Of a DNA stretch of 64,000 nt, positions 3,125 through 53,018 are shown in pieces. The translations under genes and the position numbers were made by a program. Source of the stretch: Filosporella fistucella (Eukaryota; Ascomycota; Leotiomycetes; Helotiales). The stretch is taken from contig JAQJZZ010000008.1 in the NCBI GenBank assembly GCA_030077755.1, positions 248,001 to 312,000 of the forward strand. The letters run 5' to 3'. How positions within the stretch are numbered: the stretch's first letter is position 1; every line of letters starts with the position of its first letter. The notes under the pieces were generated by a model. It was not told the origin of the DNA. It did not search any database and was given only the letters and a program-made list of their open reading frames with translations.

Positions 3125-5459
3125 TTACAGTCTTACACCTCCATGCTTCGTACCAAAGAAATCCTCAATTCCTCTCACAACTCTATCCTGAATATGCTCT
3201 CCCATACCACGAAAAAGCGGCAAGCGTACAAGCCGTTCACTTTCTTTCGTCGTAAACCGATCTTCCCCTTCAAATCTCCCAAACCGTTTCCCAGGCTCGC
3301 AGGCATGAAGGGGGCTGTAATGACACAAAGTAGTAATCCCAGTGCCCTTCATATATGCCACGAACTTCCCGCATTCCTCCGCATCTTTTAGCCTCAAGTA
3401 GAAAATATGCGCATTATGTCTACCCTCTCCTTCCACACCCGGTAATACCAGCCGTCCTTTCTCACCAAGACTTCGTAACAATACTTGATAGCGACTCCAT
3501 AGCCTCATTCTCTCCGCCATTATGCCCTCAGCACATTGCAGCTGACTCCAAAGATACGCCGCCTGAATCTCACTCATGCAGAAACTAGAGCCAATACACT
3601 GCCACGTATACACCTTTCTCCCACCCTTCAAAAACGCACTCCGATCCGTTCCCTTCTCCGCTACTAAATCCGCCTTGTCTCTCAACGACATATCATTAAT
3701 CAACACAGCCCCACCTTGACCCCCCGAAGTCACGTTCTTAGATTCGTGAAAACTGACACATCCAATGTGACCAATACTCCCAAGCGCTCTGCCCTTGTAC
3801 GTCGAAAGCAACGCTTGTGCTGCATCCTCCACAACCATCAGCTTGTGCTTTTGGGCGAGCGCCATGATCGAGTCCATTTCACACGCAGTACCCGCATAAT
3901 GAACTGGTACGATCGCTCGAGTCTTACTCGTGATGGCGGCTTCGATTTTAGTTTCATCGATATTCATGTTATAGGGTCTGATATCCACGAATACAATCGT
4001 GGCACCGCGGAGGATGAAGGCGTTGGAGGTGGAAACGTAGGTGTAGCTTGGCATGATGACCTCGTCGCCGGGTTGGATGTCTATGACTAGTGCTGCCATT
4101 TCGAGGGCGGTGGTTCCGGAAGCTGTTAGTGTTACGGGTCCGCATTGGAGGTTTTCCTGGAGCCATTTCTGGCAGTTGCGAGAGAAGGTGCCGGCGCCGG
4201 AGAGGCTTTCGTTCTGGATTGCTGTTCGTATGTTGGCCAGTTCGGTTTTAATGATGGGTGGGATGTTGAACGGTATGGCTTTGAACTGTTTTTCTGTTGT
4301 GGCAGCTAGGGTGCTCGCACCTTTCACTTCGGAGTTTTGAGTAGAGAGGAACCAGTCAATAGTCTTTTGAATGCCTTCCTCAAGACTGACAACTGGTGTC
4401 CAGTTTAATACCTCCCTAGCCAAGGTGATGTCAGGTTGTCTTTGGACTGGATCATCAACCGGCATTGCAGAATACGTGATAGGATCATCAAGCACTCGAA
4501 TTCTATTCTTCTTAACTAAATCCACCACAACACGTGCGAGGTGGTCGATCCGACAAAGAGAGTCATTTCCAATATTCATCGGTTGGCAATAATCACTAGC
4601 CATGAGTTTGGTAAGTCCAGAAATGCAATCCGTAACGTACTGAAAACATCGGGTTGCAGAACCATCGCCGGTTATATTGATAGGCTGGCACTTCATCGCG
4701 GCGGTAATGAAGTTAGATACCACGCGACCGTCTGAAGCTGGCATGCCAGGACCGTAGGCGTTGAATATCCGAGCAATACGAATGTCGATGATGTGGCCCT
4801 GTTGGTAGGCATAACACATTGCCTCAGCTACTCGTTTGCCTTCATCGTAGCAGGATCTTGGCCCGTATGGATTTACGTTGCCGAAGTAAGATTCGGGTTG
4901 TGGGCATACGAGAGGATTTCCGTAGACCTCTGAGTGGAGAAAGGATTGATGTTAATAAATATATTGACATTTGAAATATAACTGAAGAAAACTCAACATA
5001 CCAGATGTGCTAGAGAATAACAGTCGTGCGCCGCACCGCAATGCACATTTAAGCAAGTTTTCCGTGCCAACATAGCAAGTCCGCAGCGTCTTTATTGGGT
5101 CGCGCTGATAATGCTTTGGACTTGCTGGGCATGCCAAGTGGTAAATCTGATCAACATCAAGGTCGTTAAGAGGTTCTGCTATGTCCTGTCTGCCCAGTGA
5201 TCAGCTTTTGCGGCATCCATAGAAAACGGGTGTGAAAATCTCACCGAAGAATCGTGAGGTTCGGGGAGGCAATCAGGTGACTGATAGTGCTTTCCAGGCC
5301 ATTGACGAACGCATCTAGAAGGACCACATCGTGTCCTTCTTTGAGGAGATGATCAACGAGGTTAGACCCTAGGAATCCCGCTCCCTGTGTTTGATTTGAT
5401 TAGTGTTATACAACTGGATTCCTACGTTGAATACATACACCAGCTACTAGTATTTTCAT
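3125..5459 (-). CDS. Bifunctional UDP-glucuronate decarboxylase-like / WecE-like sugar 4-aminotransferase
   Basis: Exons 5459..5439, 5384..5245, 5189..5002 and 4929..3125 give 717 aa. Residues 1-310 are an extended SDR of the UDP-xylose synthase/ArnA-decarboxylase type: GGAGFLG at 7-13, TSE at 115-117 (the Ser-Glu pair used in catalysis in ArnA), YDEGK with Y144 and K148, and a conserved R near 210. Residues about 336-717 are a DegT/DnrJ/EryC1 PLP aminotransferase closest to WecE/RffA, with SFHESKN giving K514 as the probable PLP lysine and a YTW..GSS..MS..QAAYLW block. The two domains share one uninterrupted last exon, so the fusion is not an annotation artefact. Expected chemistry: decarboxylation of UDP-glucuronate to a 4-keto-pentose, then amination at C4. 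It lies head-to-head with the UDP-glucose dehydrogenase gene. Whether the first domain releases the ketone (ArnA-like) or reduces it to UDP-xylose (UXS-like) cannot be told from sequence. Confidence 0.9.
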
Positions 5460-6697
5460 GTTTCGGGTTGTATGTTGAGAACTCTGACTCTCTTTGAAAT
5501 TTGATGAGATGAAATTATTGATTTATTGATTTGAAACTTATCTCTAAGGAATGGTTTCAACATACGAGGGATGTGTCGCGTGCTCGCTTCCATGGGGTGA
5601 AGAGACTTTAATGTCTAGTAATGCCGGGGGAAGGGGGTGGGGAGGTGGGGGAGTTGGCCTGCACGCACGCTGGATCCTTATATCGTAGGGATTAAGTGAC
5701 CTGGGTCGAAAGCCGTGCTATTAACACGGGATTCAAGACAAGGGTTTAATCCGGCCGGTAGTGAAATTTAGTGCCCGTGTACAGTACGGCATTACCTTTC
5801 TTATTTAGTGCTACTATGGTGACCCGAGGCTAATTAGCCGATATATAGAATATTATTTACTATTTCCGTAAAGATCTAAAAAGTGACACGATTATAAGTA
5901 GGAACGAGATACTGGCAATTTATCTGACTAATCTACTACTTTGTACACATCCAATTAGAGTCGTCGAAGCATGTCATCCAATATCTCGTTTATAGCGCCC
6001 AAGCATCCCTAACCGGGACAAACATTTTGAGTCTCCCAAAGCGATTGGGCAGCTCGCGGGCGCCCTAGTACGGAGGTCCTGTGATTAATCTTCAAACTTT
6101 GAGATTGTTACCTGGATCTTACTCATGTACCGTCCACTGGCATTGCAGATGTTCAGCTGTTTGTGAGGTGCGGCGTGTTTCTTGGCAAGCTTGAGTGCAG
6201 ATAGCAGGTTTTTGAAGATTCGCAAGTATGCAGTACTTCGGTCGTTACTGGGTGGGAAAATTATCTCTACGCCTCAGAATATAGAATGATCTATATCGGT
6301 GACGTGGAACAAGGGGCTTCTCCCAATATCTTCCAATATCTCTCTTCTACCGGAGACACGGTAATTGACTCGTCGAGCACTCGAATGAGGTGTGCCCTGA
6401 GTCTACGTACGACGATTCAGCCAGACTTGACTAGGAGGGTCTTGGGACGGCATCCGTCAGCTTACTCTAACTTTTCTCTCGCGGATACCGCAATACGCAT
6501 AAATTAACCCGTCTTGGTTTGACGTGTTACGGAAAGCCCTTGATCAACAACCGCAATGATGGTTGAGGCTGAGTTTTTCGTGGGGGCTTTTCACGGCACC
6601 CACATTCTAATTTAGTTGTGCAACCATCTGAGGGGCGGCGGTCCTTACTAGTATTGATGTAGTAGTTGAGGTTCGGGGTACCTCCCTTCCCTTCAAA
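5460..6697. other. Divergent intergenic region of the nucleotide-sugar genes
   Basis: This is a 1.2-kb head-to-head spacer between the decarboxylase-aminotransferase gene and the UDP-glucose dehydrogenase gene. It could hold a shared promoter. It contains one copy of a dispersed repeat (about 5660-5895) and no supported gene. Confidence 0.5.
5660..5895 (+). repeat. Dispersed repeat copy A, inverted relative to copy near 12.2 kb
   Basis: The segment from gcacgc near 5661 through the tract ending near 5895 aligns with the reverse complement of about 12175-12415. The best shared block is gtgaaatttagtgcccgtgt. This copy keeps many C and G residues that are T or A in the other copy. It is probably the remnant of a transposable element. 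Confidence 0.75.
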
Positions 6698-8307
6698 ATG
6701 GCCGAAAACGAGGAGGAAGCAATTACAAAAATTTGCTGCATTGGAGCCGGTTATGGTAAGTCTCTCCAAGATAAAAAGGTTACCAAGTAACTACATGTAA
6801 AATACTGACATCTTGTAGTGGGTGCAACAACGAGTGCCGTTATGGCATATCAAAACCCCTCCGTGGATGTCGTTGTGGTCGACTCATGCGAAGCCCAAAT
6901 CCATGCTTGGAACTCCGGAAACTTTCCAATCTATGAACCTGGGTTGAAAGACATCCTTTTAGTTGTGGCTCGCTCTGGAAGCAGTGATGGTGATGCTCGG
7001 GGAGAAAGGAAAGCACGAAAAGCTTCCACCTCGAGTGTTGGAAATCTTGTGTTCTCAACCAACATCGAGTACGCGGTCCAGAATGCACAGTTGATCTTTG
7101 TCTGTGTCAATACGCCCACCAAAACAAGAGGCACCGGATCGGGGTTTGCAACTGATCTGCGGTCTGTGGAGGCTTCAGTTAACAGAATCGTGGATCTGTC
7201 GACAACAAGTAAAATTATTGTTGAAAAAAGCACAGTAACCCTCCTATAAGTTTTCCCTAGATGCGCAGCTGCTGATTTAGTGCCTAGGTGCCATGCGGAA
7301 CTGCAGCTAGGCTACAAGAACTCTTGGCTAGGAGTAATGGCAAAGGGGTAAAGCATGAAATTTTGTCCAACCCGGAGTTCCTTGCTGAGGGGAGTGCCAT
7401 CCATGACCTCCTTCACCCAGATCGAGTCATTATTGGCTGTGGAGATACAATAGCTGGAAAGCAGGCCGCAGCGAGACTTGCTTCCTTGTATAAAGCCTGG
7501 GTTCCAGAAAGCCGCATAATTTCTTTGAATCTCTGGTCTTCGGAACTTGCAAAACTCGCAGCTAATGCTCTACTTGCACAACGAATCAGTAGTATCAACT
7601 CGTTGAGTGCCATTTGTGAAGCTATTGGTGCTGATATTCATGAGGTTGGACAAGCGTGTGGCCTAGATCGACGCATCGGGCCAGAAATGCTCCGACCATC
7701 GATTGGATTTGGCGGGAGTTGTTTTGAGAAAGACATTCGGAGCCTAGTTTACCTCGCCGAGGGTCTTGGACTCAGAAGTGTTGCAGCATATTGGATGTCT
7801 GTGCTAGAATTGAACGAGTACCAGAAATATCGTCAAACCAGTCGCATCGTGGAGTTTCTACATCCTGCTGCTTGTAATCGAGTCGCTATTCTCGGCTTCT
7901 CCTTCAAGAAGGATACAGGGGATATTCGAGGAACGCCTGCATTGGCTCTTGTGAGGGATTTTGCTGATAGAGGCTTCCAAATAAACATATACGATCCTCG
8001 AGCGAAGATTGGAAGCATCCAGGAGATGCTTGACCGCGAGCTGCCACCTTCATCGGAACACAAGCTAACTGCCATATGTTCATCCGCTTTAGAAGCGTGC
8101 GAACAAGTCCATGCAATAGTCATTGCAACTGCATGGGACCAATTTCGGACACATTCGAAGGAAGAGACGTTAGACTGGACGTCCATAGCATGCCACATGC
8201 AAGAACCAAAAGTCTTGTTCGACTGCTGCAACGTAGTCAAAGCTGGGTATCTTAAGGGGTTAGGAATGAAAGTGGTAGAATTAGGCAGGAAGCGAGCGTT
8301 ACTTTAG
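6698..8307 (+). CDS. UDP-glucose 6-dehydrogenase
   Basis: Exons 6698..6755, 6819..7234 and 7288..8307 give 497 aa, the usual length for eukaryotic UGDH. The first intron splits the Rossmann motif, which becomes GAGYVG after splicing. The NPEFLAEG segment, the SELAKLAANA segment (catalytic Lys about 247) and GFGGSCF with the catalytic Cys at about 303 are all present. The family oxidises UDP-glucose to UDP-glucuronate with two NAD+, passing through a thiohemiacetal on the Cys. Here it would feed the decarboxylase domain of the divergent neighbour. The sequence resembles the eukaryotic branch rather than short bacterial Ugd, and it has normal fungal introns. An insertion of charged and Ser residues near residues 75-95 is unusual for the N-terminal domain. 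Confidence 0.93.
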
Positions 8308-8627
8308 ACATAAGAATAGAATAGAAAGAAGCGGTGCGTTACAAATTGATGAGTTGAACATTCACCAGATATCTATTCCAATTCTATAACACCACTAGCA
8401 CAAAGCAGCAATTTGATATGTGAAGTGACTTCTTCATAGCAGCTAAAAGTACCACGCTCAAAGCATTACATAAGCCTGCATCCTTGTTCTGCACTACATC
8501 GCCTTCCCCGAATATTTCTTCATCGTACACTCAAACTCAGATAAAAAAATAAGCACCACAGCACTTCACCTGTGAGCAAAAAATAAAGCCGCTACATCTC
8601 CACCGCGCCTTGTCAAAACCCTAAAAG
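8308..8627. other. Short spacer, promoter of the formyltransferase gene
   Basis: This 320-bp spacer separates two co-oriented cluster genes. It is A-rich immediately before the ATG at 8628, with no other signal recognised. Confidence 0.4.
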
Positions 8628-9524
8628 ATGTCAGCTGTCGTCTTCGCATACCATAACGTTGGCGTACGTTGCCTCTCAGTTCTCCTGGCACATGGCATCA
8701 ATATCAAACTGGTCGTCACCCATTCCGACGCCTCGAACGAGAATATCTGGTTCAGCAGCGTCGCCGATCTCGCAGCCCAACATGACATCCCCGTCGTAGC
8801 GCCGGAAAATCCTCATGATGAGGAGACTATGAAGCTCTTGCATGATGCCGCGCCCGATTTTCTATTTTCATTTTATTATAGACTCCTACTCAAATCCTCC
8901 ATCCTCCAAATTCCTAATAGGGGATGCTACAATATGCACGGCTCGCTCTTACCTCTTTACCGTGGTCGAGTACCCGTAAATTGGGCTGTGCTTCATGGGG
9001 AGACACAGACGGGAGCAAGCCTCCATGCCATGGTACCGAAGGCAGATGCTGGTGCTCTCGTGGATCAGATGGTTGTTCCCATTCTACAAAATGACACCTC
9101 CAAAGATGTTTTTGACAAGGTCCTGGTAGCATCAGAACTAGTTCTGCACCGTAGCGTCCCTTTATTACTTGCAGGAACTGCCAAACACATGGCCATGGAT
9201 CTCAGTCAAGGATCTTACTTTAGTGGCCGCAGTGCTGAGGATGGTCGTATAGATTGGGGGCAATCAGCACTGCAAATTCACAATCTCGTCCGCGCAGTGA
9301 CGCACCCTTACCCAGGAGCTTTTGCAGAGACGGTGAAAGGCCGATTGGTATTGTGGCGCACGATGTGTTGTGGTGAACTGAAGGAGATGCCGGGAGGACC
9401 TGCTTTATTTATGAGTAATGGAAAGATGTACTTAAGAGCTGGAGATGGTGGCGTTCTAAGGGTTTTGGAAGTTGAAGTTGACGGTGAGAAAGTGACGACA
9501 ATCGAGGATACCATACCTCTCTGA
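8628..9524 (+). CDS. ArnA-type UDP-4-amino-sugar formyltransferase
   Basis: Single exon, 298 aa, corresponding to the N-terminal formyltransferase half of bacterial ArnA. The catalytic residues N102 and H104 (within YNMHGSLLP) and D140 (within PKADAGALV) fall at the same positions as in E. coli ArnA. The FFSFYYR-like block and the C-terminal OB-like part are also present. ArnA N-terminal domains transfer a formyl group from N10-formyltetrahydrofolate to the 4-amino group of UDP-4-amino-4-deoxy-L-arabinose. Here the enzyme stands alone, while the decarboxylase is fused to the aminotransferase in a nearby gene. It has no intron and no mitochondrial targeting signal, so it is probably not mitochondrial methionyl-tRNA formyltransferase. 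The exact sugar substrate is inferred from the neighbours. Confidence 0.9.
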   Translation: MSAVVFAYHNVGVRCLSVLLAHGINIKLVVTHSDASNENIWFSSVADLAAQHDIPVVAPENPHDEETMKLLHDAAPDFLFSFYYRLLLKSSILQIPNRGCYNMHGSLLPLYRGRVPVNWAVLHGETQTGASLHAMVPKADAGALVDQMVVPILQNDTSKDVFDKVLVASELVLHRSVPLLLAGTAKHMAMDLSQGSYFSGRSAEDGRIDWGQSALQIHNLVRAVTHPYPGAFAETVKGRLVLWRTMCCGELKEMPGGPALFMSNGKMYLRAGDGGVLRVLEVEVDGEKVTTIEDTIPL

Positions 9525-9632
9525 TACGATCTGGATAATGGCTCAAGGTATAGTTTGTTTTATAACTGTTAAAATTACAATTGCTTCCTACTTAAAATAA
9601 GAAAAATATAGAAAATTAGCTCAGAATAGTAA

Positions 9633-11540
9633 CTAAGAATGCTCAGAGGCTGCCACAGCTGCGGCGATACTGCTGATTGTAGTCACGCTTTCCTCCATAT
9701 CAGCTTGTATAGCCTTCAAGCAGCCTTGAAACTTCCCTGACCCGGTCAAACACACAATAACCTTGTCCGCATGCCCAACGTACACGAGAGCAATCTGATC
9801 CAATTGAAAGACAAAAGCCTCACCAGCACGAATCGAATCGCCATGACCCGAACCCGTGAAATACGCCGGCTTCTTCATCAGCGCTGAGAGTGTTTTCAAC
9901 GCAGCAGACTTTTGCTCAGACTGCGGTAAAGCTCGAACACTGTTCGCAAGAAAGATCAGACCGAAACTGAATGCCGCACCCTCCCTGGTCCACTTCTGAA
10001 GTTCTTTGTATTTCTTCAGAGCTAGGATGAACGATTGATCAAGATTCTTGCTCGGCGTACAGCTACGCAGATCCTGGCAGAACTTGAGGGACTCCTCTGT
10101 CATGACGTAGTTTGCATTACATCTCCCGTCCGCGAAAGTGCGGACAGATGTTGGTTCAACGATGCAAATCGTCGAACTATCTTCCAAGCTTAGAAGTGCC
10201 TTCTGATAAGCTATCTGGAGTACGAAATTTAGAAGCCTTGATGAGCGAAGCAGATCAAGAGTATCAGTGTTCTGAAATAGTGTGAAATGGTGTGATTTTG
10301 TTGCCGAGTAAAGGGGAGGCGGCTGGTAAATTGTCATGGAATCTTCGGATGTGCCAAATTCGAGCTCTTCGAGCTTGACAGGCTTTGTGATCGTTCTTAT
10401 CGTCTCCGGGGTCTCCTTCAAGCTTTTGTCCAACATTGTCATCAATTGTCCAAAGGGGCCACCGTCTGCTGCCGCGTGTTCACCTCGGACAGCGATGGCG
10501 CCGCCTGAAAACACTGAGAAGCCTAGGGTTTTGTCCGCATAAACGTTGTACGGATCTGTCTTAGCTGATTTCAGTTGTGCTCTGTCACTATATGGCTGAA
10601 AAGAGTGAAGGGCCACCGAAGTGATTGCCGATTCGAGGTCATTCAGTGCAATAGCATGGGTAGAAAGGATCTTCTTCCTTCTTGCTGCCCACTCAACTCT
10701 GGTGCGTAAAGTGGACCAAGTCGCAATCGTAGACTGTGTTGGCTCTTTCTGAGGAACACTGAGTATACTCTCAATGTGATTTGCCAGCATGAGTGGTGGT
10801 ATTGGCCAGCCTCTAGAATCGACAATGTGGACTTTGTACGCTCGGCCTTTGGCCCATATTACCGCATGCGTTGAGCTAGGGTGTGTCCTGAGTTCATCGA
10901 TCACCTCTCCAGGAATTCGCGAGGTAGCAAAGATTTCAACCAGCTGCTTCGTCTCAAATTTCTGATTGGCGCCATAAGCCCGCACAGTCTTTGGTGAGGT
11001 GTACATGGCACCCAAGGTGTAAAGAAGTCGTGCAGTGGCGTCTACCTGGTTGTCTGTCGGTGAATGAATAAGCCAAGCCAGTGTCCCCTCACACAAAGGC
11101 CCTCGTTGCATGAGTAGTCCATTTTTGAACGCGTTCGTCGCCCATGCAGCTGATTTCTGGGTCGAATTCATATTTACAAACTTCTTGGCTGCTCGCAGGT
11201 AGTTTACCTCGGTTTCTCCGTCTAAAAAGTCAAGAGAGGAGACGAAGTTTCCTGGAACCTTTTCTCCATGATCGATAATATTGGCGTGCTGCTCATTGCC
11301 GAAGTTTTCAAGAAGATCCAGAACCATTGCGTTTTCTTTGGTCGCTTTCACGATGTCGTGATAGTTGGGGATGGGGTATTGAGGCAGGAACTTGTCATGG
11401 TCTGCAGACCTCTGCGCTAAAGTGGCTATCACACCTGGCCGTCTCAAGTCGTCGTGTATGATTGGAGAAGGAGTTTTCTTGTCTTGAGACAGCTCGAGGT
11501 TCTCCAAACGTGAAATGAGCGGGATAGACATAATGATCAC
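9633..11540 (-). CDS. Choline/carnitine O-acyltransferase family protein
   Basis: Single exon, 635 aa. The fold is recognised from the central catalytic segment GEHAAADGGPFGQ (H355 as general base) preceded by FSVFSGGAIAVRG, and from a C-terminal SVRTFADGR block where carnitine acyltransferases have a STRxFxxGR carnitine-binding motif. The FTGSGHGDS segment near the end also fits. No peroxisomal SKL-type tail is present (it ends EHS) and no clear mitochondrial presequence. The motif differences leave the acceptor open: carnitine, choline, or a cluster-specific hydroxyl. It converges tail-to-tail with the formyltransferase gene with only 108 bp between stops, which ties it to the cluster. Acylation of the formamido-sugar product is an inference. 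Confidence 0.85.
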   Translation of the reverse strand: MIIMSIPLISRLENLELSQDKKTPSPIIHDDLRRPGVIATLAQRSADHDKFLPQYPIPNYHDIVKATKENAMVLDLLENFGNEQHANIIDHGEKVPGNFVSSLDFLDGETEVNYLRAAKKFVNMNSTQKSAAWATNAFKNGLLMQRGPLCEGTLAWLIHSPTDNQVDATARLLYTLGAMYTSPKTVRAYGANQKFETKQLVEIFATSRIPGEVIDELRTHPSSTHAVIWAKGRAYKVHIVDSRGWPIPPLMLANHIESILSVPQKEPTQSTIATWSTLRTRVEWAARRKKILSTHAIALNDLESAITSVALHSFQPYSDRAQLKSAKTDPYNVYADKTLGFSVFSGGAIAVRGEHAAADGGPFGQLMTMLDKSLKETPETIRTITKPVKLEELEFGTSEDSMTIYQPPPLYSATKSHHFTLFQNTDTLDLLRSSRLLNFVLQIAYQKALLSLEDSSTICIVEPTSVRTFADGRCNANYVMTEESLKFCQDLRSCTPSKNLDQSFILALKKYKELQKWTREGAAFSFGLIFLANSVRALPQSEQKSAALKTLSALMKKPAYFTGSGHGDSIRAGEAFVFQLDQIALVYVGHADKVIVCLTGSGKFQGCLKAIQADMEESVTTISSIAAAVAASEHS

Positions 11541-12842
11541 GCTGATAGCAGTGCGTCGTTTAACTCTCCGGGTGTTGAGTGATAAATTATCGTTGGATAG
11601 ATTTGCAGTAAAGTGACGGCTTCGCGCGGATGTTTAGATATACGGGTCACCATGAAGCATATCGTGAAATGTGAATTGAGTGGAGCTTATGGAATATATA
11701 AGAAGTTATTTGACGAAGATGGCATACTTCAGTCAACTCAACTGCGGCGTATATCTCAAAATCCTACTTCGATACACCCCAACCTGACGCCCCGTACCTC
11801 GTGAAATCCCGTCAATCGAGTGCACGTACAAAATAAACTTAACGAGTTGGCCCGTTGTATCTTATGCCCTGATCCATCCTCTGTGCGCCTTACAGGATGG
11901 ATCCAGAATTGTCGTGTGAAGGTTGGGGGCCAAGAGTAACGAGGCGTCGCATTCACATCCTGACCTCCGTATCCTGAACCAGTAACATGTGTTCTCCTAA
12001 TTTTGTTCTTTCTTGGGTTGGCTATATCCGTCGACGCTGCAGTCACCCTATAGTACTGTAACATCGTGTGGCTCTGGCGTCCATTGGCGGTCCTTGCAAA
12101 GGATTAGACCTCACCTCAGCTGACTAGTCGGCTTAGAATTTTTGAAATAAAAAAATATTTTAATTTAGCGATATGCTTATCAGAGTAACCCTCCTTATCT
12201 CCTCTAATTTTTATAAAAGTATTAAATAATATTTGATATACTTATTAATTATATTTGGGTTATTATAATAATATTAGATAAAAACAGGTAATTTTATACA
12301 CGGGCACTAAATTTCACTATTAGGCAGATTTAACCCTTACCTTAAATCTGTGTTAATAGTATAGCTTTTAACCTAAGTCACTTAGTCCCTAATGATATAA
12401 AGATCTGGCGTGCGTTTGGGATAACTTTCCGTGAGTTCTCTTCGAGAAAATTTTGCAAACAAATTTAAGTCTTTACCGGGAGGACCGCCGCGAAAGTAAG
12501 AAGGCGTGGGAAGGCGTGGTACAGAGCCCTGGCAAGAAGGCGCTAAGACTGTCTCACTATAAGGAAGCAGGGGAGGCGATCTCAGGATGCGGCGCTGTCC
12601 ATATTGTTCAGCCCGCTTTGTCTCTTCAAAGTTCCTTTGCAGCCCTGAGGCAAACTTTCCTATGTTCCTACGGCGTATTCATGCAGTTCCCTCCGTGTAT
12701 AGAGCTGATGCAGTTGAGCTCCAAATAGAAACCCTATTCCATTGGTTATATCACCATCAAATTATGATTACACATTTTCAATTTAATCGCATGCATTTGA
12801 AACCTTCAAACTTGTTACTTTCCTACCAGACGCCAAGAAAAC
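11541..12842. other. AT-rich intergenic region with repeat copy B
   Basis: Head-to-head spacer between the acyltransferase and ABC transporter genes. The centre (about 12130-12410) is very AT-rich and contains the decayed repeat copy. Short frames near 12453-12904 show no family features and overlap the ABC transporter start. Confidence 0.5.
12175..12415 (-). repeat. Dispersed repeat copy B, AT-shifted (RIP-like)
   Basis: The reverse complement aligns along about 240 bp with 5660-5895. Where copy A reads cctgggtcgaaagccgtgct, this copy reads cttaggttaaaagctatact, and where A reads gtgacccgaggctaattagc this copy reads ataacccaaatataattaat. Nearly all differences are C-to-T or G-to-A toward this copy, as expected from RIP. 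Confidence 0.75.
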
Positions 12843-15800
12843 ATGTCCCCTTCATCACCATCTTCATCTCCCACCGCAACATCTGGAATCCTGTCATCAA
12901 GTGAAGCAGCAAGTTTGCAAGACCATAATGTCATTTGTGACATTCCAGATGAGGACAAGCGAGTCATATTTGAACGGCAAATAGCTGTCCGAAGCATCCA
13001 GACGAACTGGCTGAAACTTTATCGATACGCCACGGGTTGGGATATGGTATTCATCTGTGTTGCATCATTGTGCGCAATTGCTGGCGGCAGTGTGATTCCT
13101 CTCACAACAGTAAGCTTGATCTAAATCATTTTCTTAGAGTCAGCTAAAACGGTATTCAGGTCATCTTTGGGGAACTTGCTGGCAATCTTCAGTTGGTGGT
13201 GTCGGACGCCATCAGCCGTCCCAACTTCTTTCAACTGCTGCACAACACTGTTCTATACTCGATATACCTTTCAATTGGAATTTTCATACTGATATATGCC
13301 GCCACTGTCGGATTTATATACACTGGAGATCACATAGCATCCAAAATTCGAAAAGAATACCTAAGAGCCATTCTTCGCCAAAACATTGGATATTTCGATC
13401 GAGTTGGTGCTGGGGAGCTTACTGCCAGCATCACGAGTGATATCAACATCATTCAAGATGGCATATCCCAGAAGGTTGCTTTGACTATGACGAGTGTTGC
13501 AACTTTCGTCATTTCTTTCATCATTGGATTTACGAGATCTTGGAAGTTGACATTGATATGCTCATGCACCATATGGTCGATCGTCGCTGCCATGGGATAT
13601 GGCTCAAAAATTTCTATTGGCTACAAGAAGAAATCTTTTGAGGCATCTGCTGAGGGTGGAAGCTTCGCAGAGGAAGTTTTCAGCTCTGTGCGTAATGCCA
13701 CGGCGTTTGGAACGCAGGATAAACTGGCCAGACAACACTGCTCTTATCTAGCGATCGCAGAGCATTGGGGTTTCAGATTCAGAGCAGCATTAAGCACTAT
13801 GATTGGAATATTGTACTCCTTCCTTTACCTAAATTATGGACTGGCGTTCTGGGCGGGATCTAAGTTTGTTGTTGATGGAAGTGCTACTTTGTCAGACATC
13901 ATAACGATAATTTTTGCGATAATCATGGGATCTGCGAGCCTCAGTCAAATAGGTCCAAATTTCCAGGCGCTAGCGGCCGGTATTGCAGCTTCTTCTAAAG
14001 TGTATGCCACTATCGACCGAAGTTCACCACTGAACCCTACTACAGAGACTGGAACTCGACTTGCAAACGTCGAGGGAAAGGTGGAATTTCGAGATATCAA
14101 GCATATATACCCCTCCAGACCGGATACTGTGGTTCTACCGGGACTAAGCCTAGAGTTCCCAGCTGGGAAGATGACGGCGCTAGTTGGAGCTTCCGGCTGT
14201 GGCAAGAGCTCGATCGTGGGTTTGCTCGAGAGGTTTTATGAACCAGTGGCTGGAGCTATTCTACTGGACGGCCATGATATCACGGGGCTGAATCTACGTT
14301 GGCTCCGCCAACAGATGGCCTTAGTACAACAGGAACCTGTTCTCTTCAGTCAGAGCATTGCAGAAAACATTCGAAATGGATTGATCGGGTCAACTTTTGA
14401 GCATGAGCCAGAACAGCAACAACAGGACCGCATCATTCGTGCTGCAAAACTCGCCAATGCACACGGCTTCATTTCGGCATTGCCTGAAGGCTATGATACG
14501 TACATCGGAGAACGAGGCTTCCTTCTTTCCTCTGGCCAGAAACAACGAATTTCGATTGCTCGTGCAGTCATTGCAGATCCGAAGATATTACTTCTGGATG
14601 AGGCTACTTCAGCGCTTGATAATAAGTCTGAAGCCATTGTTCAAAAGGCGCTTGATGAATCAATCAAAGGCAGAACGACCATAGTCATTGCTCACAGGTT
14701 ATCTACTGTCAAGAAAGCAGACAGAATCGTTGTCTTAGAAAATGGTTGCATTGTTGAGCAAGGCACGCATGAGACACTTCTACACCATAGAGGGGTATAT
14801 TTCAATTTGGTTTCTGCTCAACTCTTCGTCGGTCATTCAGGAGAGGAAAGAGATGGAGATATTCTTTCACTAACGAGTTCAACATTGCCAAAGAAAGAGT
14901 TCAGGTTCCATGAGTATGAATTCGCGTTTGAAGATTTCGACCTTCCTGAACTTGACACAGATATGATCAGCATCAGTAAACAAAACTCGAGGGCAGTGGT
15001 GAATGATGAGAAACACCGTGTTATGCAAGCTTCAAAAACGCCACAGCGCCACCACAACCATCAAGAAGACGGGGACATACGTTATTCCCTATGGAGCATA
15101 CTCAAATTCATCCTTTCTTTCAATATCGGCGACGCGCTATACATGTGTTTAGGACTCATTTGCTCAATTGTCGTCGGGGCAGGTCAACCAGCACAAGGAG
15201 TACTTCTTGGGAAGGCTGTTGTCTCGATTTCCCTCCCACTCTCAAACAGCAGTCGACTAAGATCCGAGGTTGACTTTTGGGCACTTATGTATCTCATGCT
15301 TGGATTGGTGGAACTCATTGCGACAGTGGCCCAGGGAGTCGCTTTTGCGTATTGCTCCGAAAGGCTTATCTTCCGCGCCAAGGATCGAGCTTTCAGAACC
15401 TTTTTGAGGCAGGATATGGCCTATATGGACGAGAAGAAAAATGGAGCAGGATCGCTGACTTCTTTCCTATCCACCGAGATCAACCACTTGACGGGCATCT
15501 CAGGTATGACTCTTGGAGCATTGCTTTCGTCCGGAACCACCCTTTTCGCCGCAGTGTGCATCGCTTTAGCCATTGGATGGAAACTTGCTCTTGTAACCAT
15601 GAGCACTATTCCAGTCGTTCTTGGCTGTGGTGTCCTTCGTAGTTGGTCGTTGCGCCGCTTCGATGAAAATTCAAAGGCAGCATATCAAGAATCGGCCAAT
15701 TATGCTTGTGAGAGCATCAATGCAATACGAACGGTTGCAAGCTTTACCATGGAGTCAAAAGTCGATCAATGCTATCACAAACAGATCGCCAAGCAAGGTA

Positions 15801-16921
15801 GAACGTCTTTGAAGTCGAACCTAAAGACTTCAAGCCTCTACGCTGCGTCGCAGTCACTCATTGTGCTTTGCAGTGCCCTTGCATTTTGGTACGGTGGGAC
15901 TCTCGTCGGAAATGGAGAATATGGCCTTTTGCAGTTCACAGTCTGCTTTTTTGAGATAATTTACGGGGTTCAGACAGCTGGAGCGGTCTTCAGCTATGCC
16001 CCTGATATCGGTAAAGCCTTGAATGCCGGATCAGCACTCAAGAATCTTGAGGACAAACGGCCGGAAATTGATACATGGAGTACTGAGGGCATGAGAGTTG
16101 AGACTGTGAAGGGTGACATTGAGTTTCGAGAAGTTCACTTTAAGTATCCAGGGCGACCAAATGTGCCTGTCCTCCAAGGGTTAAATTTTACTGTAAAAAG
16201 TGGCCAGTATGTAGCAATTGTCGGCGCGTCTGGATGCGGGAAGTCGACTACCATCGGCATGTTAGAGCGCTTTTACAATCCAGTTTCTGGGAGCGTACTC
16301 GTTGATGGCAAAGATATCTCTCGTCTCAACGTCAACGATTATAGGTCTCATCTAGCTCTCGTACCCCAAGAACCTGTTTTATATAGCGGCACAATCAAGG
16401 AAAATATTTTGCTAGGTATTGATAGTGGCAATGTTAGTGAAGAACGAGTACTGCTTGCCTGTCAGCAAGCCAATATCTATGACTTCATTATGTCGCTCCC
16501 GTAGGTTCTTCACACTGCCCAAGAAATGTTCAAAACGCTTACAGGTGATCTTAGTGACGGCTTCAATACCGAGTGTGGCTCCAAAGCCATTCTTCTTTCT
16601 GGCGGACAAAAGCAAAGATTGGCAATTGCCCGCGCCCTTCTGCGTAACCCAAGGATCCTCTTGCTAGATGAATCGACGTCTGCGTTAGACTCCGAGTCCG
16701 AGAAGATTGTTCAACAAGCTCTAGATACAGCTGCGAAGGGGCGTACTACCATTGCAGTGGCTCACAATCTACGTACTGTCCAGAAGGCAGATATGATCTA
16801 CGTACTGGAGAATGGAGCTGTTGTAGAGAGCGGGAGGCATGATGAGTTGATGGCTTTAAATGGAGTATATACAGAGTTAGTATCATTGCAAAATTTAGCT
16901 CAGCCAGCTCGTTCGAATTGA
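12843..16921 (+). CDS. ABC-B (MDR/P-glycoprotein-like) full transporter
   Basis: Exons 12843..13109, 13160..16500 and 16555..16921 give 1324 aa, the standard length of a TMD-NBD-TMD-NBD exporter. NBD1 has Walker [10 protein letters not shown] at 432-440 and Walker B ILLLDEA with E570. NBD2 has Walker [10 protein letters not shown] at 1111-1119, signature LSGGQ at 1217-1221 and Walker B ILLLDES. The NBD1 signature is LSSGQ (545-549) rather than LSGGQ. H-loops are present (IAHRLST and VAHNLRT). The last intron was placed so that [10 protein letters not shown] is restored; a nearer acceptor at 16543 would give a stop. The family exports hydrophobic compounds through the plasma membrane. Its position beside the amino-sugar genes suggests export of their product, or self-protection. 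Confidence 0.92.
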
Positions 16922-47059: not shown

Positions 47060-50000
47060 CTACTTCTTTCCTGTCAATGACTCAGTAACCATACCAAGTC
47101 CAAGACCTTTCAAGATGCCCTTCAGACCCAATCCACCAAGAAGATTATCCAAAAGACCGCCGAGTCCAAGTCCGCTCAACAATCTGCCAACCAGACCCAA
47201 AACGCCTGCAAGTAACAAGCCAACGGCAGCGAGAATTTGACCAAGAGGCTCAGCAAGGAGACCCCAAAGAGGATTGAGTTCCTTCTTGGCATGTGGCATG
47301 CCAGCAATCTTCTTCTTTGCGTTGTCGATGGTAGTTTGTACATTGCCTGTCAACTCCTTCAGGACCTCTGCGAGGTGATGCTCTTCTGGAGTAGCTTCAC
47401 GGGTAGCAGCCTTTTGCTTTGCGTTGGCAGAGATACGTCCGTCTGGATCGAGACCACGGATAACACCGTTGGCTTCTGATAGAATTTGTCCACCTTGCTC
47501 GATGAGAGGTTTGACAGTATCGACGAGCTTCTGTTCATCAAGCTCATCCTTTGGTTTACGTTCAGCAACATCAATTTCCTAGAAATTTGTTAGTATGTGT
47601 GTTTGATCAATTTTAAAAGATACATACCTCGGTGATTTGCTTCAGGACAGGATTGATCTTGTCGAGAGATTGTTGAACACAGAAAGCCATTTGCTTAGCA
47701 AGCTTCTTGTCCATCTCTAGTGCCTTTCTCTCCTCGCGCTCCTCTTCGGTTTCTTGTGGCTCCTCTGGTTCTGGCTCAGCCTCTACCTCTGGCTCTGGCT
47801 CAGGCTCAGGAATGTCCTCAATAAGAGTCACATGTCCGATGACTTGATTCTTCTGGTTGTAGACATCTCCATCCTCATCAATCTCTTTACCAGCGCACTT
47901 GGTGACTTCGCCTTCAGTCAGCTTGGCAATGAGATCACCATTCTCGTCGACGACATTACCCTCACGGTTGACCTTTCGGCCAGCGACAGGGCTGTGAGGC
48001 TTGACCTTCTCTTCCTCCTCCCATCTTTCGGCCTTACCAAGAGTGTTACCATTCTTGTCCAAGACATCTCCATCTGGATCAACCTCCTTGCCGTAAAGCT
48101 TCTTGGCATCACCTTCAATGAGACGACCGATAATGACTCCCTTGGAATCAGAGACCTTTCCATCTTTGGTCACCTTTGGTGAGTCAAAGCCAGAGAATAT
48201 ACCCTCCTTCTGACCATCACGCTCGCTCTCAGGTACCAACTCAGCTTTTCCGACGACGTTTCCGCCCTCGTCCCAGATTTGACCGTTCTTGTCACACATC
48301 TTTCCTGCAAGCTTCTTTGGGTCACCCTCAACGAGACGACCATAAATGCCTCCATGAGAATCAACAACATTGCCGACCTTGTTGACGCGCTTGCCAGCCA
48401 GAGCTGACATGTCAATCTTCTCTGGTTCTGGGGCATCTTCTTCGATCCATCGCTCAGCACGGCCGAGAACGTTACCAATCTTGTCGACGATTTCACCATC
48501 TTTGTCAATCTTCTTGCCGACGAGCTTCTTGGCATCGCCCTCAATCAGTTTGCCGACGATTTGACCCTCGTATAGAATGTTACCATGCTTGTCGCAAATA
48601 GCATCTGGGAAGTCTTCGAATGGACCGTCAGATGATTCATCACGGTCGTCAGCTCCAAGGAGTTCGGCGGTGCCGATAACCTTTCCAGAGTCTGAATATA
48701 TCTTTCCTTGTGCGTCGCACTTCTTGCCGATGAGTTTGGCCAAGATACCGGTAACGACACGTCCGAAGAGCTTGCCATTATCGTCAACGACGTTTCCGGC
48801 CTTGTTGACCTTCTTGCCGTCGAGTTCAGAGAGGTCTTGAACTTCCTCCTCTTCTGGAACGATATCCTCCTCTTGATATCTCTCAGCCTTTCCGAGGACA
48901 TTGCCGTTCTTGTCAACAACATCTCCATCGGCATCGACTTTCTTCCCTTCCAATTTCTTGGCATCACCCTCAATCAGCTTTCCCACAATCTTGCCTTCGA
49001 AAATGACATTGCCATCTTTGTCGAGAACGCTGTCTGGGAAATCCTCAAAAGGAGCGGATGGCTCAGCCTCACGTTCATTTTCTGGGAGAAGCTCGGCTCT
49101 GCCGATAATCTTTCCGCTGTCATTCCCTTCATTATGTTAGCCGACACTTGGTTGAGTGATAAACTGGGAGTTTGACTTACAGATGTTACCCTCGCCATCA
49201 ACCTTCTTTCCGATCAACTTCTTGACGTCACCTTCAACCAATTGGCCGAATGGGTTGCCGTTCTCATCAACAATCTTTCCAGCCTTGTTGACCTTCTTGC
49301 CTTTGAGAATGGACAAATCTGGGGTCTCAGGGATAGGATTTCCTTCCTCATCCAACTTCTCTTCGATAGGATTTCCATCTTCGTCCAATTTTGGCTCGAT
49401 TGGCTTTCCGTCCTCATCGAGTTTCTCTTCAATTGGGTTGCCATCAGCATCTAGCTTTGGCTCGATTGGCTTGCCATCCTCGTCGAGTTTCTCTTCGATA
49501 GGGTTGCCATCAGCATCTAGCTCTGGCTCCAGTGGCTTGCCATCCTCGCCCAACTTCTCCTCAATTGGGTTCCCGTCAGCATCCAACTTTGGTTCTTCTG
49601 GGATCGGGTTTCCATCTTCATCAAGCTTCTCAGTGATTGGCTTTCCATCTTCACCCAACTTCTCGATCGGATTTCCATCCTCGTCCAATTCAGGCTCAGC
49701 TGGAATGGGGTTACCATCCGCGTCCAGCTTCTCTTCAATTGGTTTGCCGTCCTCACCTAGCTTCTCGATTGGGTTTCCGTCTTCATCCAACTCTGGTTTG
49801 TCTGAAATGGGATTTCCTTCCTCGTCAAGCTTCTCCTCGATTGGATTCCCATCGGCATCCAACTTGGGCTCATCTGGGATTGGATTTCCGTCCTCATCGA
49901 GTTTTTGCTCGATTGGGTTACCATCCTTATCCAGAGTCTCCTCTCCTGGAAGCTTCTCTCCAGCCTCGTCCAACTTGTCTGCTGGGATTGGGTTTCCGTC

Positions 50001-51281
50001 CTCATCTAACTTCTCCTCTCCTACACTACCCAACTTGGAACCAGCCTCATCCACCTTCTCTCCCTCCTCAGGAAGGGTGCCGATGGCGCTCTGTGGCTTA
50101 CCAGGTAGTTGAAGGTTCTCCTCTTCTGGGCTGAGTTGTGAACCCTCAAGGTTCTTCTTTGATAATTGAGAACCCGCTTTGCTCTCACTCTCGATGACTT
50201 TATCGCCTTCAGGGAGTTGAGATCCAGAAACGCTGCCACCCTCAAGCTTGGAGCCGACATCGCTGCCAGCATCCAATTTCGAGCCAGCCTTGCTTCCAGC
50301 ATCCAGCTTGGATCCAACCTGCGACCCAAGATCGCTCGCGCCCTCAGCCTTCTTCAGTAGCTCAGGCTCGATGTTAGCTTTACCGATTGTGCTGCCGCTC
50401 TCGGCTTTGAGGTTACCTTCATCATCGATATCTGTGATGGCAGTGCCGACGAGGTCTTGTGGTGACCCCTCTGCGAGTTTGCCGATGACTTCACCAGTCG
50501 CGTTGGTGACATCTCCATTGTCTTGAACGCCGAAAGGTGCAGCGAGTTCTGGTGTCTTGACACCAGCTACTCCCTCATCTTCGACATCCTTGGTTGATGT
50601 GGCCTCTGGCTTCTCGATACCTTCTGTGGCGCCTGAGATTGCCGATTTGGCCGACTTTGCTCCCGATATTTCAGACTTTGGCGCTTGACTTTCATTATCT
50701 TTTGTTGTACTCTCATTGAGATCCGCCTTGCCGATAATGTTTCCTTCCTCATCAAGAACATCACCTTCTTGATCTACCATGCTCCCCTCCAACTGTGAAG
50801 CCTTCTCACCCTCGACATGACCAACAATGTTGCCTTCATCATCAACAACGTTGCCATCATGATCAACGCTACCCATTGGGATAGCCTCAGTTCCTTCCTC
50901 CTCCTCTTCTTCTTCTTCCTCTTCTGCGCCTGCTTGGCTCTCATCTGCCTCAGCATTGGTGATTGTTTCAAAGTCACCTCCATTCGATTCCGCTTCTGTG
51001 CCGTTGTGAATGGATTTTGTTTGGATATCTACCCGTCGGATTAGTATCGTTGTTTCCTCAATTCGTTGGACGTCTTATGCAATGGTGAGTCCAACTCGTC
51101 ATTTGGGGAAGTCTGTACTCTCAGGAAATGGAATCATCAACATACCCCCAGTTTCTTTGTCATCTAATTGACTTGTATCTGCTTGTTCTGGACTCTTCTT
51201 TTTTGAGCTCTTTGGTGATTCAACAGCGCTGGCATCACGTTTTGGCGTGGCCGGCATTTTCTGTGTTGCGATATCCGCCAT
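47060..51281 (-). CDS. Large DUF3659 / LEA-like repeat protein
   Basis: Exons 51281..51146, 51028..49181, 49126..47628 and 47578..47060 give 1333 aa. The N-terminus is Lys/Ser-rich, then an acidic run of ten Glu. Residues about 97-200 and 620-1120 are DUF3659-type units of the form LxGKKVDxDGxVxDxxGNVxGKAE, about nine paired units. Between them (about 385-618) lies a tandem array of 14-17-residue units such as KLDEDGNPIEE. The C-terminal 172 residues form a separate conserved block ending in a Gly/Leu-rich hydrophobic stretch (about 1264-1325) that may associate with membranes. Fungal proteins of this class are called LEA-domain proteins and are linked to desiccation or stress protection, largely without experiments. 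Long open frames on the plus strand here (for example 49156-50112) are antisense shadows of the repeats. Confidence 0.88.
49310..50010 (-). repeat. In-frame coding repeat array (LDEDGNPIEEK type)
   Basis: Roughly fifteen units of 42-51 nt encode variants of LDEDGNPI followed by EEK, PEEP or EPK. The length stays a multiple of three, and both other strand frames stay open through the array. Confidence 0.8.
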
Positions 51282-53018
51282 GTTGGCGATTGGATTCCAA
51301 AAGTAATACGCAGCTTGGAAACCGATATGGTGATAACGAGGAGAATTGGGGGATGATATGATTGGTATTGGGAATGTGCTTAAGTACGCACGTTTATTGA
51401 TTGGAATAAAGGTGCGATTTATTTCCTAACTTTTTTTGCTGAAGCTCTCAGGTTATATCAGGAAAGCAAATTACCTCCATACTCAAAGCTTCCAACGACG
51501 TCATGAGAGAGCTCCAGGCTGCAGGAACCAAGACCCTCTGACCAGGAAGGAGGAGCTATGATCCAAGAAGAGAAAGTACTCTTACATCACACCCCGTTAG
51601 AAACATCTTGATCGAGATGAAGCAACGAATCTAGCATCATTCTCAGCACCACTTCCCCATGGAACAGGCTCCGAAGAGCATGGAACATGGAGCATGGCCA
51701 TATGGTGATTGAGTGCTGCACGATTTCCATGTGAGATGCCGTGTACAAGGAACATTTCCGGATTTCTGAGCTCCTTCAGCATTGAAACGGCTGCATAGTT
51801 CTTCATAGTTTGCAAATAAACTTGTGACTTTGTTAGAGACTCGTCAGAAGAGCGGGGAACTAACAGAGAGATCGTCGCAGCCACACATGTGCACAAGTGT
51901 CAACGGTGCAGTGACGATCTGGGTAATGGTGGGTGGGTAGTGGGTAGAGGTTGGCGGCGGGCGGGTGTGTGAGAGCTATTAGCACTGGGCACCCTAGAGT
52001 AAGAAAGTTGGGGCTTGAAGTTTGCCACCCTCGGACCCTGGAGCTGCCAAGTTTGGTGTGGCTGACCGCTGAAACTAACCACTAAATCGACCCCACTGTT
52101 GCATTTACAGGGAGCGGTAAATCTTGCCTTGGTGGGTGAGCACGCTAGAAGCCCTTCTATTTCAGACGCTATCCTTTTGCGGTATATTCTCTCCTCTTCA
52201 ACATCCCGTACCCCAATTACCAACTTCGTATCACCTCTTCACCAGCCACATCAGCTCCAGTGCGTCAGGATATTGTTCAATACTTGTTTTCCTTCAGAGT
52301 TTATGCACCTGTTGCGACATTCCGTGGGTCTAGATTGACGACGATCTTCTTCGTAGGATCCCCCGTCCTGGTCTAGTGGCTATTTGCTATCTGATCGGAT
52401 GCACGAGGTGTTCAAACAGGCAACTCATATTTCCATGTAAGCTGAAAGCTTTGCAGGAATACAGCACTTAGTTTGGTACGTTTAGATATTGGAATATTCA
52501 AACTGGTAGCATTGGATACAGCTTGCAAAGTTGCGCTATTGGGTTGTCGATGCAGAGCTGTAGCTGGGCCATCAGCTTACTTGAGCAATAATCTCTATCA
52601 AACAGCTCCATAAAATATCCCGCGGCTGCCGAGCGTCATGGCAATTGGAGCTATGTGGGATTTCACATGGAACTTGCAAGGCGGAGACGCCCCGCTGCAG
52701 CCTGCCCCAATATCCCGAACCACATCTCGATCTTGTAAGTACAAGGTTTCAAATCAGCTTCCAGGTTTCTTAGCCACTTATGACACATAAGCTACCCCTC
52801 GAAGAAAGAGCTCCTATGAGGTAGGATTTCCACAGTGCTGTCATCATACCGAATCCCCCAGCCATTTTTATCACAGACCACCAGGACCCTGAAACCAGGC
52901 AAAAGAAAGACTCTTAGAAAATCGACGTCAACACTCAATTCTGGATATAACCACTGTCATCTCGACATCTTTTTGGTTGGTTTTTGGCCTAAAGATCGCC
53001 GTGAAATATATTTCCAAT
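51282..53018. other. Head-to-head spacer between the two LEA-like genes
   Basis: 1.7 kb, no supported gene. Probably contains both promoters. A cccct site near 52795 could be a stress-response element, but a site this short is expected by chance. Confidence 0.45.

Follow-up and report, generated by a model that had tools for sequence, protein, structure and literature searches.

Known aminosugar pathways and a five-gene fungal locus

The chemistry of 4-amino-4-deoxy-L-arabinose (L-Ara4N) is regarded as a signature of Gram-negative bacteria, whose arn pathway for L-Ara4N on lipid A comprises Ugd, either ArnA or a split formyltransferase plus U4kpxs, ArnB, ArnC, ArnD and ArnT. WecE (RffA) is the dTDP-Fuc4N aminotransferase of the enterobacterial common antigen (ECA) and takes dTDP-4-keto-6-deoxyglucose as its substrate, while UDP-xylose synthase (UXS)-type enzymes usually carry their reaction through to UDP-xylose. 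The calicheamicin aminopentose route, which is actinobacterial, unfused and not known to include an N-formyltransferase, employs the UDP-glucose 6-dehydrogenase (UGD) CalS8, the decarboxylase CalS9 and the aminotransferase CalS13. Five adjacent genes at positions 3125..16921 of a 64,000-nucleotide stretch (the window) of the genome of the fungus Filosporella fistucella probably constitute a small biosynthetic cluster for UDP-4-deoxy-4-formamido-L-arabinose (UDP-Ara4FN), acting by the mechanism proposed below, and are best classed as a fungal counterpart, chimeric in make-up, of the Ara4N-formyl branch. The chemical sequence would be the same as that of the bacterial arn pathway, and the fungal formyltransferase is homologous to the split-type arn formyltransferase, with its nearest relatives in the Nevskiaceae. 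Unlike the arn enzymes, the fungal decarboxylase is of the UXS type and the aminotransferase of the WecE type, the two are fused, and the host is a eukaryote.

The window corresponds to positions 248001-312000 of a 4.63-Mb contig (JAQJZZ010000008.1) in a genome of 45.77 Mb and 19 contigs. The gene models were derived from the DNA, and then checked for start, stop, inner stops and intron ends. All five open with ATG, close with a stop codon and contain no inner stops once the introns are removed, with seven canonical GT..AG introns of 50-72 bp distributed over three of the five genes. They encode, in order, a fusion enzyme (717 aa, - strand), a UGD (497 aa, + strand), a formyltransferase (298 aa, + strand), a carnitine-acyltransferase-like enzyme (632 aa, - strand) and an ABC-B exporter (1324 aa, + strand). 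The original prediction of five adjacent genes here, among them a UDP-glucose dehydrogenase, an acyltransferase and an ABC-B exporter, is thus borne out by complete reading frames with the expected domains, and the acyltransferase can be specified further as having the choline/carnitine acyltransferase fold. Contamination of the assembly was rejected as an explanation on the basis of the introns in the genes, the length of the contig and the fungal-type flanking genes. Fungal-type features include the shortness of the introns and the flanking GH72 glucanosyltransferase and amino-acid permease genes.

A bacterial arn-type formyltransferase

The stand-alone ArnA-type (UDP-Ara4N) formyltransferase (8628..9524, + strand), the gene of which is intronless, was assigned by Pfam, NCBIfam, PDB match and tree. 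It carries the Formyl_trans N and C domains and scores 413.9 bits (cut-off 316) against NCBIfam NF005414, a model titled just 'formyltransferase', while its 281 bits against the full-length ArnA model fall under the cut-off of 777 because just a single one of the two ArnA domains is present. The best PDB match is the ArnA formyltransferase domain (207 bits), followed by methionyl-tRNA formyltransferase (119 bits), with lower scores for the deoxyhexosamine formyltransferases, namely the GDP-4-amino-4,6-dideoxymannose enzyme (88.5 bits), WlaRD (53 bits) and VioF (34 bits). Residues N102, H104 and D140, presumably catalytic, match those of ArnA in the alignment. The fungal genome contains six places matching Formyl_trans_N, of which the cluster formyltransferase is one.

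Relatives were sought with a pattern scan of one genome per species across 84,980 bacterial and archaeal species, built on six peptides of the fungal formyltransferase and hence biased towards near relatives. Ninety-five were retrieved and eighty kept, the nearest of which (65-66 % identity) occur in Stenotrophobium and in a second genome of the Nevskiaceae. On the fetched DNA, 68/80 loci also carried an ArnB-like match together with a decarboxylase-like one, with both lying at most 5 kb away in 67, while two of the eighty loci had neither; several of the fetched loci stop close to the formyltransferase gene. The Stenotrophobium locus includes six consecutive open reading frames (ORFs) with ArnT, ArnB, ArnC, formyltransferase, U4kpxs and ArnD as best NCBIfam matches, where the cut-off is exceeded by the formyltransferase and U4kpxs alone and the others represent best matches below it. 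Among 398 genomes sampled evenly from the Pseudomonadota, the formyltransferase was matched in 52 at E <= 1e-60, and in the order to which Stenotrophobium belongs, 3/85 genomes matched at E <= 1e-80.

A tree of 99 rows, drawn from 106 matching loci less three short alignments, the query's own locus and four identical rows, placed the fungal protein together with two Nevskiaceae proteins inside the bacterial rows (support 100/99, with the bootstrap not fully settled). This nesting among bacterial arn-type formyltransferases indicates acquisition by horizontal transfer. The GC content of the fungal gene (0.50) lies below that of three of the closest bacterial genes (0.56-0.68), and on this base composition the transfer appears to be old. 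The protein nevertheless retains 67 of the 68 columns that are near-invariant across 87 bacterial relatives, a count made after removing 11 of the 99 tree rows, namely the query's own identical copy and those that were remoter or odd. Sequence comparison therefore identifies the fungal enzyme as an arn-type formyltransferase, horizontally acquired from bacteria in an old transfer and under continued constraint since. The family score, tree and residue conservation all uphold its original designation as ArnA-type.

A fused UXS-type decarboxylase and WecE-type aminotransferase

The fusion enzyme (3125..5459, - strand; exons 5439-5459, 5245-5384, 5002-5189 and 3125-4929) combines the Pfam Epimerase and DegT/DnrJ domains within a single protein of 717 residues. 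Its N-terminal half (residues 1 to ~314) is a UDP-glucuronate decarboxylase domain of the UXS type, for which the best PDB match is UXS1 (330 bits; which we take to be the human protein) rather than ArnA (~84 bits). Against the NCBIfam ArnA and U4kpxs models the fusion scores 83.2 (cut-off 777) and 78.6 bits (cut-off 294), respectively, both below the cut-off. Residues T115, E117, Y144, K148 and R210, presumed to be the UXS catalytic residues, are all present. Relatives of the UXS half sharing 37-53 % identity were found in 118/398 of the sampled Pseudomonadota genomes at E <= 1e-50, the nearest bacterial UXS being ~50 % identical. Bacterial proteins and eukaryotic ones of the UXS1 type match this half with similar scores, which is compatible with either origin.

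The C-terminal half (residues ~335-708) is a WecE-type sugar C4 aminotransferase domain. It scores 544 bits against TIGR02379 (cut-off 434.85) and 539.4 bits against NF008687 (cut-off 375), compared to 187.7 bits against the ArnB model (cut-off 631). Among PDB entries, WecE was matched with 482 bits and CalS13 with 61 bits, so that, although the calicheamicin route likewise employs a UGD, a decarboxylase and a C4 aminotransferase to supply an aminopentose for a natural product, the fungal aminotransferase belongs to another branch. The motif FHESKN aligns with FHETKN of WecE, and K514, which we take to be the lysine that binds pyridoxal phosphate (PLP), is conserved. In a tree of the WecE family the fungal branch falls inside the family without a resolved place, and a long-branch warning applies to it. 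Identity to WecE proteins is at most 59 %, and, unlike WecE, the fungal half is fused to a UDP-glucuronate decarboxylase and has no dTDP-glucose dehydratase partner. On sequence grounds the aminotransferase derives from WecE; it is not an ArnB and shows no convergence on ArnB, and the identification of the two halves as ArnA decarboxylase and ArnB was rejected on the scores given above. Of the fused decarboxylase-like/C4-aminotransferase originally predicted, the fusion and the chemistry stand while the ArnA and ArnB labels fall. The wider claim of a step-for-step match with Ugd, ArnA (decarboxylase), ArnB and ArnA (formyltransferase) is likewise partly supported, being right in its chemistry and wrong in two of the three family labels.

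The WecE affinity and the lack of any move towards ArnB would also suit a fusion enzyme acting on a different nucleotide sugar, such as the 4-keto-6-deoxyhexose of classical WecE, with the formyltransferase formylating the resulting 4-amino sugar. Against this, the fused UXS-type decarboxylase keeps its active-site residues, the adjoining UGD supplies the substrate of that decarboxylase, and the PDB scores of the formyltransferase favour ArnA over the deoxyhexosamine formyltransferases (207 against 88.5, 53 and 34 bits), making a different 4-amino sugar quite improbable.

The fusion gene is the single place in the 45.77-Mb genome that matches its protein at E <= 0.001, and it lies 3.2 kb from the formyltransferase gene. 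The neighbouring UGD (6698..8307, + strand; exons 6698-6755, 6819-7234 and 7288-8307) has the N, central and C domains of the UDPG_MGDP_dh family, and its protein matches four places in the genome, the cluster gene included. The three further UGD-like matches (C12:1476402-1477268, C15:87616-88425 and C4:1871164-1871463) share 55, 49 and 37 % identity, respectively, over the matched part, and the cluster UGD is thus probably an extra copy. By rough arithmetic, the chance of finding the formyltransferase and one of the four UGD-like loci within 10 kb of the fusion gene would be about 1e-6.

No fused UXS-WecE relative was recognised in viral contigs, among the phage and plasmid matches listed, or in the 398 sampled Pseudomonadota genomes. 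A query comprising most of the fusion matched 58/398 of the latter at E <= 1e-60, with 57 of the matches falling on the aminotransferase half (41-59 % identity); one match across both halves (32 % identity) reads as two adjacent genes. The viral contigs gave a single pattern match and no confirmed one. Ninety-six phage records, ten of them listed, matched the fusion, all at less than 60 % identity. In a 2.7-kb record from the phage collection, OR851131.1, the match extends over at least 80 % of the query, but the record was rejected as a fusion as it resembles a piece of a bacterial ECA operon. This record is filed as a Salmonella phage and matches both fusion halves at 45 %, in the manner of the rffG and rffA genes on Salmonella plasmids, and on this likeness is probably host DNA. 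Plasmid matches comprised 1424 records (25 listed). In 27 of the 1424, a single place spans at least 80 % of the query; among the matches listed, the three with more than 90 % coverage carry annotations of rffG/rfbB and rffA as distinct genes and were not taken as fusions.

Proposed pathway

The UGD would convert UDP-glucose to UDP-glucuronate, which the UXS half would then oxidise and decarboxylate to a UDP-4-keto-pentose, an intermediate of UDP-xylose synthesis. The fused WecE half would intercept this keto intermediate ahead of its reduction and, by PLP-dependent transamination, yield UDP-4-amino-4-deoxy-L-arabinose, onto which the captured arn-type formyltransferase would transfer a formyl group from N10-formyl-tetrahydrofolate to give UDP-Ara4-formyl-N. 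The known reaction of WecE gives a galacto-configured (axial) C4 amine, and the same geometry on a pentose predicts the L-arabino amine, which is accepted by arn formyltransferases. In the bacterial pathway, the unfavourable transamination is probably drawn forward by formylation. With less certainty, a glycosyltransferase encoded elsewhere may transfer the sugar, with the carnitine-acyltransferase-like enzyme acylating the conjugate and the ABC-B pump exporting it. The sequence itself shows the five genes with their families and domains, that they are intact and linked, and that the formyltransferase came from bacteria. The substrates, the keto-sugar hand-over and the stereochemistry are what we infer from this combination of a UXS-type decarboxylase, a WecE-type aminotransferase and an arn formyltransferase, which implies a route rebuilt from parts of different origin.

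Several observations weigh against this pathway. Since UXS-type enzymes usually end at UDP-xylose, the hand-over of the keto sugar from the decarboxylase half to the aminotransferase is an assumption, although the C-terminal aminotransferase, which UDP-xylose synthase lacks, should divert the intermediate. The decarboxylase half further departs at 34/138 columns that are near-invariant in the thirty best bacterial UXS matches. Among the 144 columns invariant in the twenty best WecE matches, the fungal aminotransferase retains 120 and is altered in 24, including T437N, E521Q, R540A, D555K and R636C, which lie in columns also more than 90 % conserved in 58 ArnB-like rows. These alterations amount to no shift towards ArnB (0/41 WecE/ArnB-discriminating columns and 2/24 changed invariants). 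They make the assigned substrate tentative, and some loss of aminotransferase function is possible. Furthermore, nothing recognisable as an acceptor, a glycosyltransferase, a deformylase or a scaffold-building synthase turned up near the cluster, in the surveyed ORFs of the window and the 40 kb on its left.

It is tentatively proposed, as a serious possibility, that the fungus makes and uses N-formyl-4-amino-4-deoxy-L-arabinose via the UXS-WecE fusion and the arn formyltransferase for an exported, acylated aminopentose glycoconjugate, which would represent an undescribed fungal class. No fungal pathway of the UDP-Ara4FN or aminopentose kind was found among the papers listed in searches of the open-licence literature, which does not imply its absence from print. 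The literature found on aminopentoses and fungi concerned Actinomadura and Streptomyces, and that on UDP-xylose synthase, aminotransferases and fungal gene clusters concerned Xanthomonas.

Acyltransferase and ABC exporter

The acyltransferase gene (9633..11531, - strand) is intronless and encodes a protein with the Pfam Carn_acyltransf domain. In alignment with CPT2, EHAAADG corresponds to EHSWGDG, retaining the histidine motif EH..(D)G, the histidine of which is presumably catalytic. The carnitine motif is not retained: RCNAN replaces RTETI and V replaces Y, at positions taken here to form the carnitine-binding site. There are no other matches to this protein in the genome at E <= 0.001. The full-size ABC-B exporter (12843..16921, + strand; exons 12843-13109, 13160-16500 and 16555-16921) has two ABC_membrane stretches and an ABC_tran domain. 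The presence of an exporter alongside an acyltransferase that has lost its carnitine-site residues suggests that the product may be an acylated and exported glycoconjugate. Carnitine-acyltransferase (cAT) domains linked to fungal polyketide synthases (PKSs) offload acyl chains to sugar or polyol acceptors, and the cluster enzyme may be likened to them, without sequence comparison, as a case of this fold used outside carnitine metabolism. It differs from them in that it stands alone, with no PKS recognised beside it.

Intergenic repeat

Two inverted copies of a ~205-bp repeat, sharing 73 % identity, occupy the divergent fusion/UGD (copy A, 5663..5865, + strand) and acyltransferase/ABC (copy B, 12217..12415, - strand) intergenic regions. 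No other place in the genome matched at E <= 0.001, in a search that passes over very common words, so that this rarity is not strict. The 47 substitutions from copy A to copy B comprise 38 transitions, 32 of them towards A/T, and nine transversions. Owing to this bias, a shared regulatory element was set aside, and the repeat is more likely a duplicate mutated by repeat-induced point mutation (RIP) or a transposon fragment. It ties the two halves of the cluster together physically, and is not good evidence of co-regulation. A search for a common promoter word in the three intergenic regions found one 8-mer, and no 9-mers or 10-mers.

The RIP-like changes in the repeat, together with the changed invariant columns of the WecE and UXS halves, could be expected of a silent or decaying relic of horizontal acquisition with no present function. 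A relic is very improbable, however, given that the five genes are all complete, that such introns as they contain are canonical, and that the formyltransferase has kept 67/68 near-invariant columns after long divergence.

Surroundings of the cluster

The window and the 40 kb on its left were surveyed by visual inspection of ORF lists (left of the window, 36 ORFs with a minimum length of 120 aa; within the window past position 16000, 29 with a minimum of 150 aa), by Pfam analysis of twenty flanking ORFs picked by eye, and by a scan for ketosynthase (KS), acyltransferase (AT), acyl carrier protein (ACP), adenylation (A-) domain and cytochrome P450 signatures. The motif scan was empty over this range for PKSs, non-ribosomal peptide synthetases (NRPSs) and P450s, though short exons could escape it. 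No core scaffold enzyme was recognised; terpene synthases were unscanned, and the core may sit elsewhere. Neither the ORF reading nor the Pfam analysis revealed a glycosyltransferase, a class not included in the motif scan. The original observation that no glycosyltransferase, deformylase or PKS/NRPS is visible therefore holds over the wider range as far as it was surveyed. When the genome was searched with the Stenotrophobium proteins, in searches without a positive control, ArnD gave no match at E <= 0.01 and ArnC two weak ones (best E 2.9e-7), which may be a further difference from the bacterial arn pathway; as a guess, the ArnC match represents a dolichol-phosphate-mannose-synthase-like gene.

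These results bear on two further accounts of the product. The sugar module could decorate a fungal surface glycan, sphingolipid or glycoprotein, with the acyltransferase and ABC pump as unrelated neighbours, as might be expected where no scaffold synthase is recognised nearby and the genes on the right include one for a GH72 glucanosyltransferase, albeit a common type of gene. Yet neither a glycosyltransferase nor a gene for polymer export was recognised in the stretch, and the acyltransferase, with its carnitine-site changes, is single in the genome at the threshold used. The acyltransferase and ABC genes also directly adjoin the three sugar genes, and the repeat present in both divergent intergenic regions gave no further match in the genome. 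Surface decoration is accordingly considered rather unlikely. Nectrisine is a known fungal metabolite of the 4-amino-4-deoxyarabinose type, and this precedent, as well as the lack of a recognised glycosyltransferase at the cluster, would accord with a free 4-amino-4-deoxy-pentose or nectrisine-related iminosugar as product rather than a glycoside. Such a product is extremely improbable, as nucleotide activation and N-formylation would serve no purpose in its synthesis, and no gene of the GMC oxidoreductase type belonging to the nectrisine route was recognised by eye.

Other features of the surroundings include two adjoining ORFs that encode SIS/GKRP-like domains and BadF-type kinase domains (L009 1667-3689, - strand), ~26-28 kb left of the window, and resemble a bacterial-type MurQ etherase and an amino-sugar kinase in a single gene. 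The GH72 gene right of the cluster encodes a cell-wall glucanosyltransferase. Long repetitive ORFs occur at 47063-51074 (- strand), where DGD/DKNGNVLG-type repeats were seen by eye, and at 52893-55274 (+ strand), which contains DUF3659.

Implications

If the UDP-Ara4FN cluster is as proposed, a bacterial sugar pathway would have been re-invented in a eukaryote, with one step gained by horizontal transfer and the others assembled from UXS and WecE parts. The locus would then provide a new fungal sugar donor and a natural fusion coupling two steps via a keto-sugar intermediate, as well as a genome-mining handle for fungal products that bear aminopentoses.

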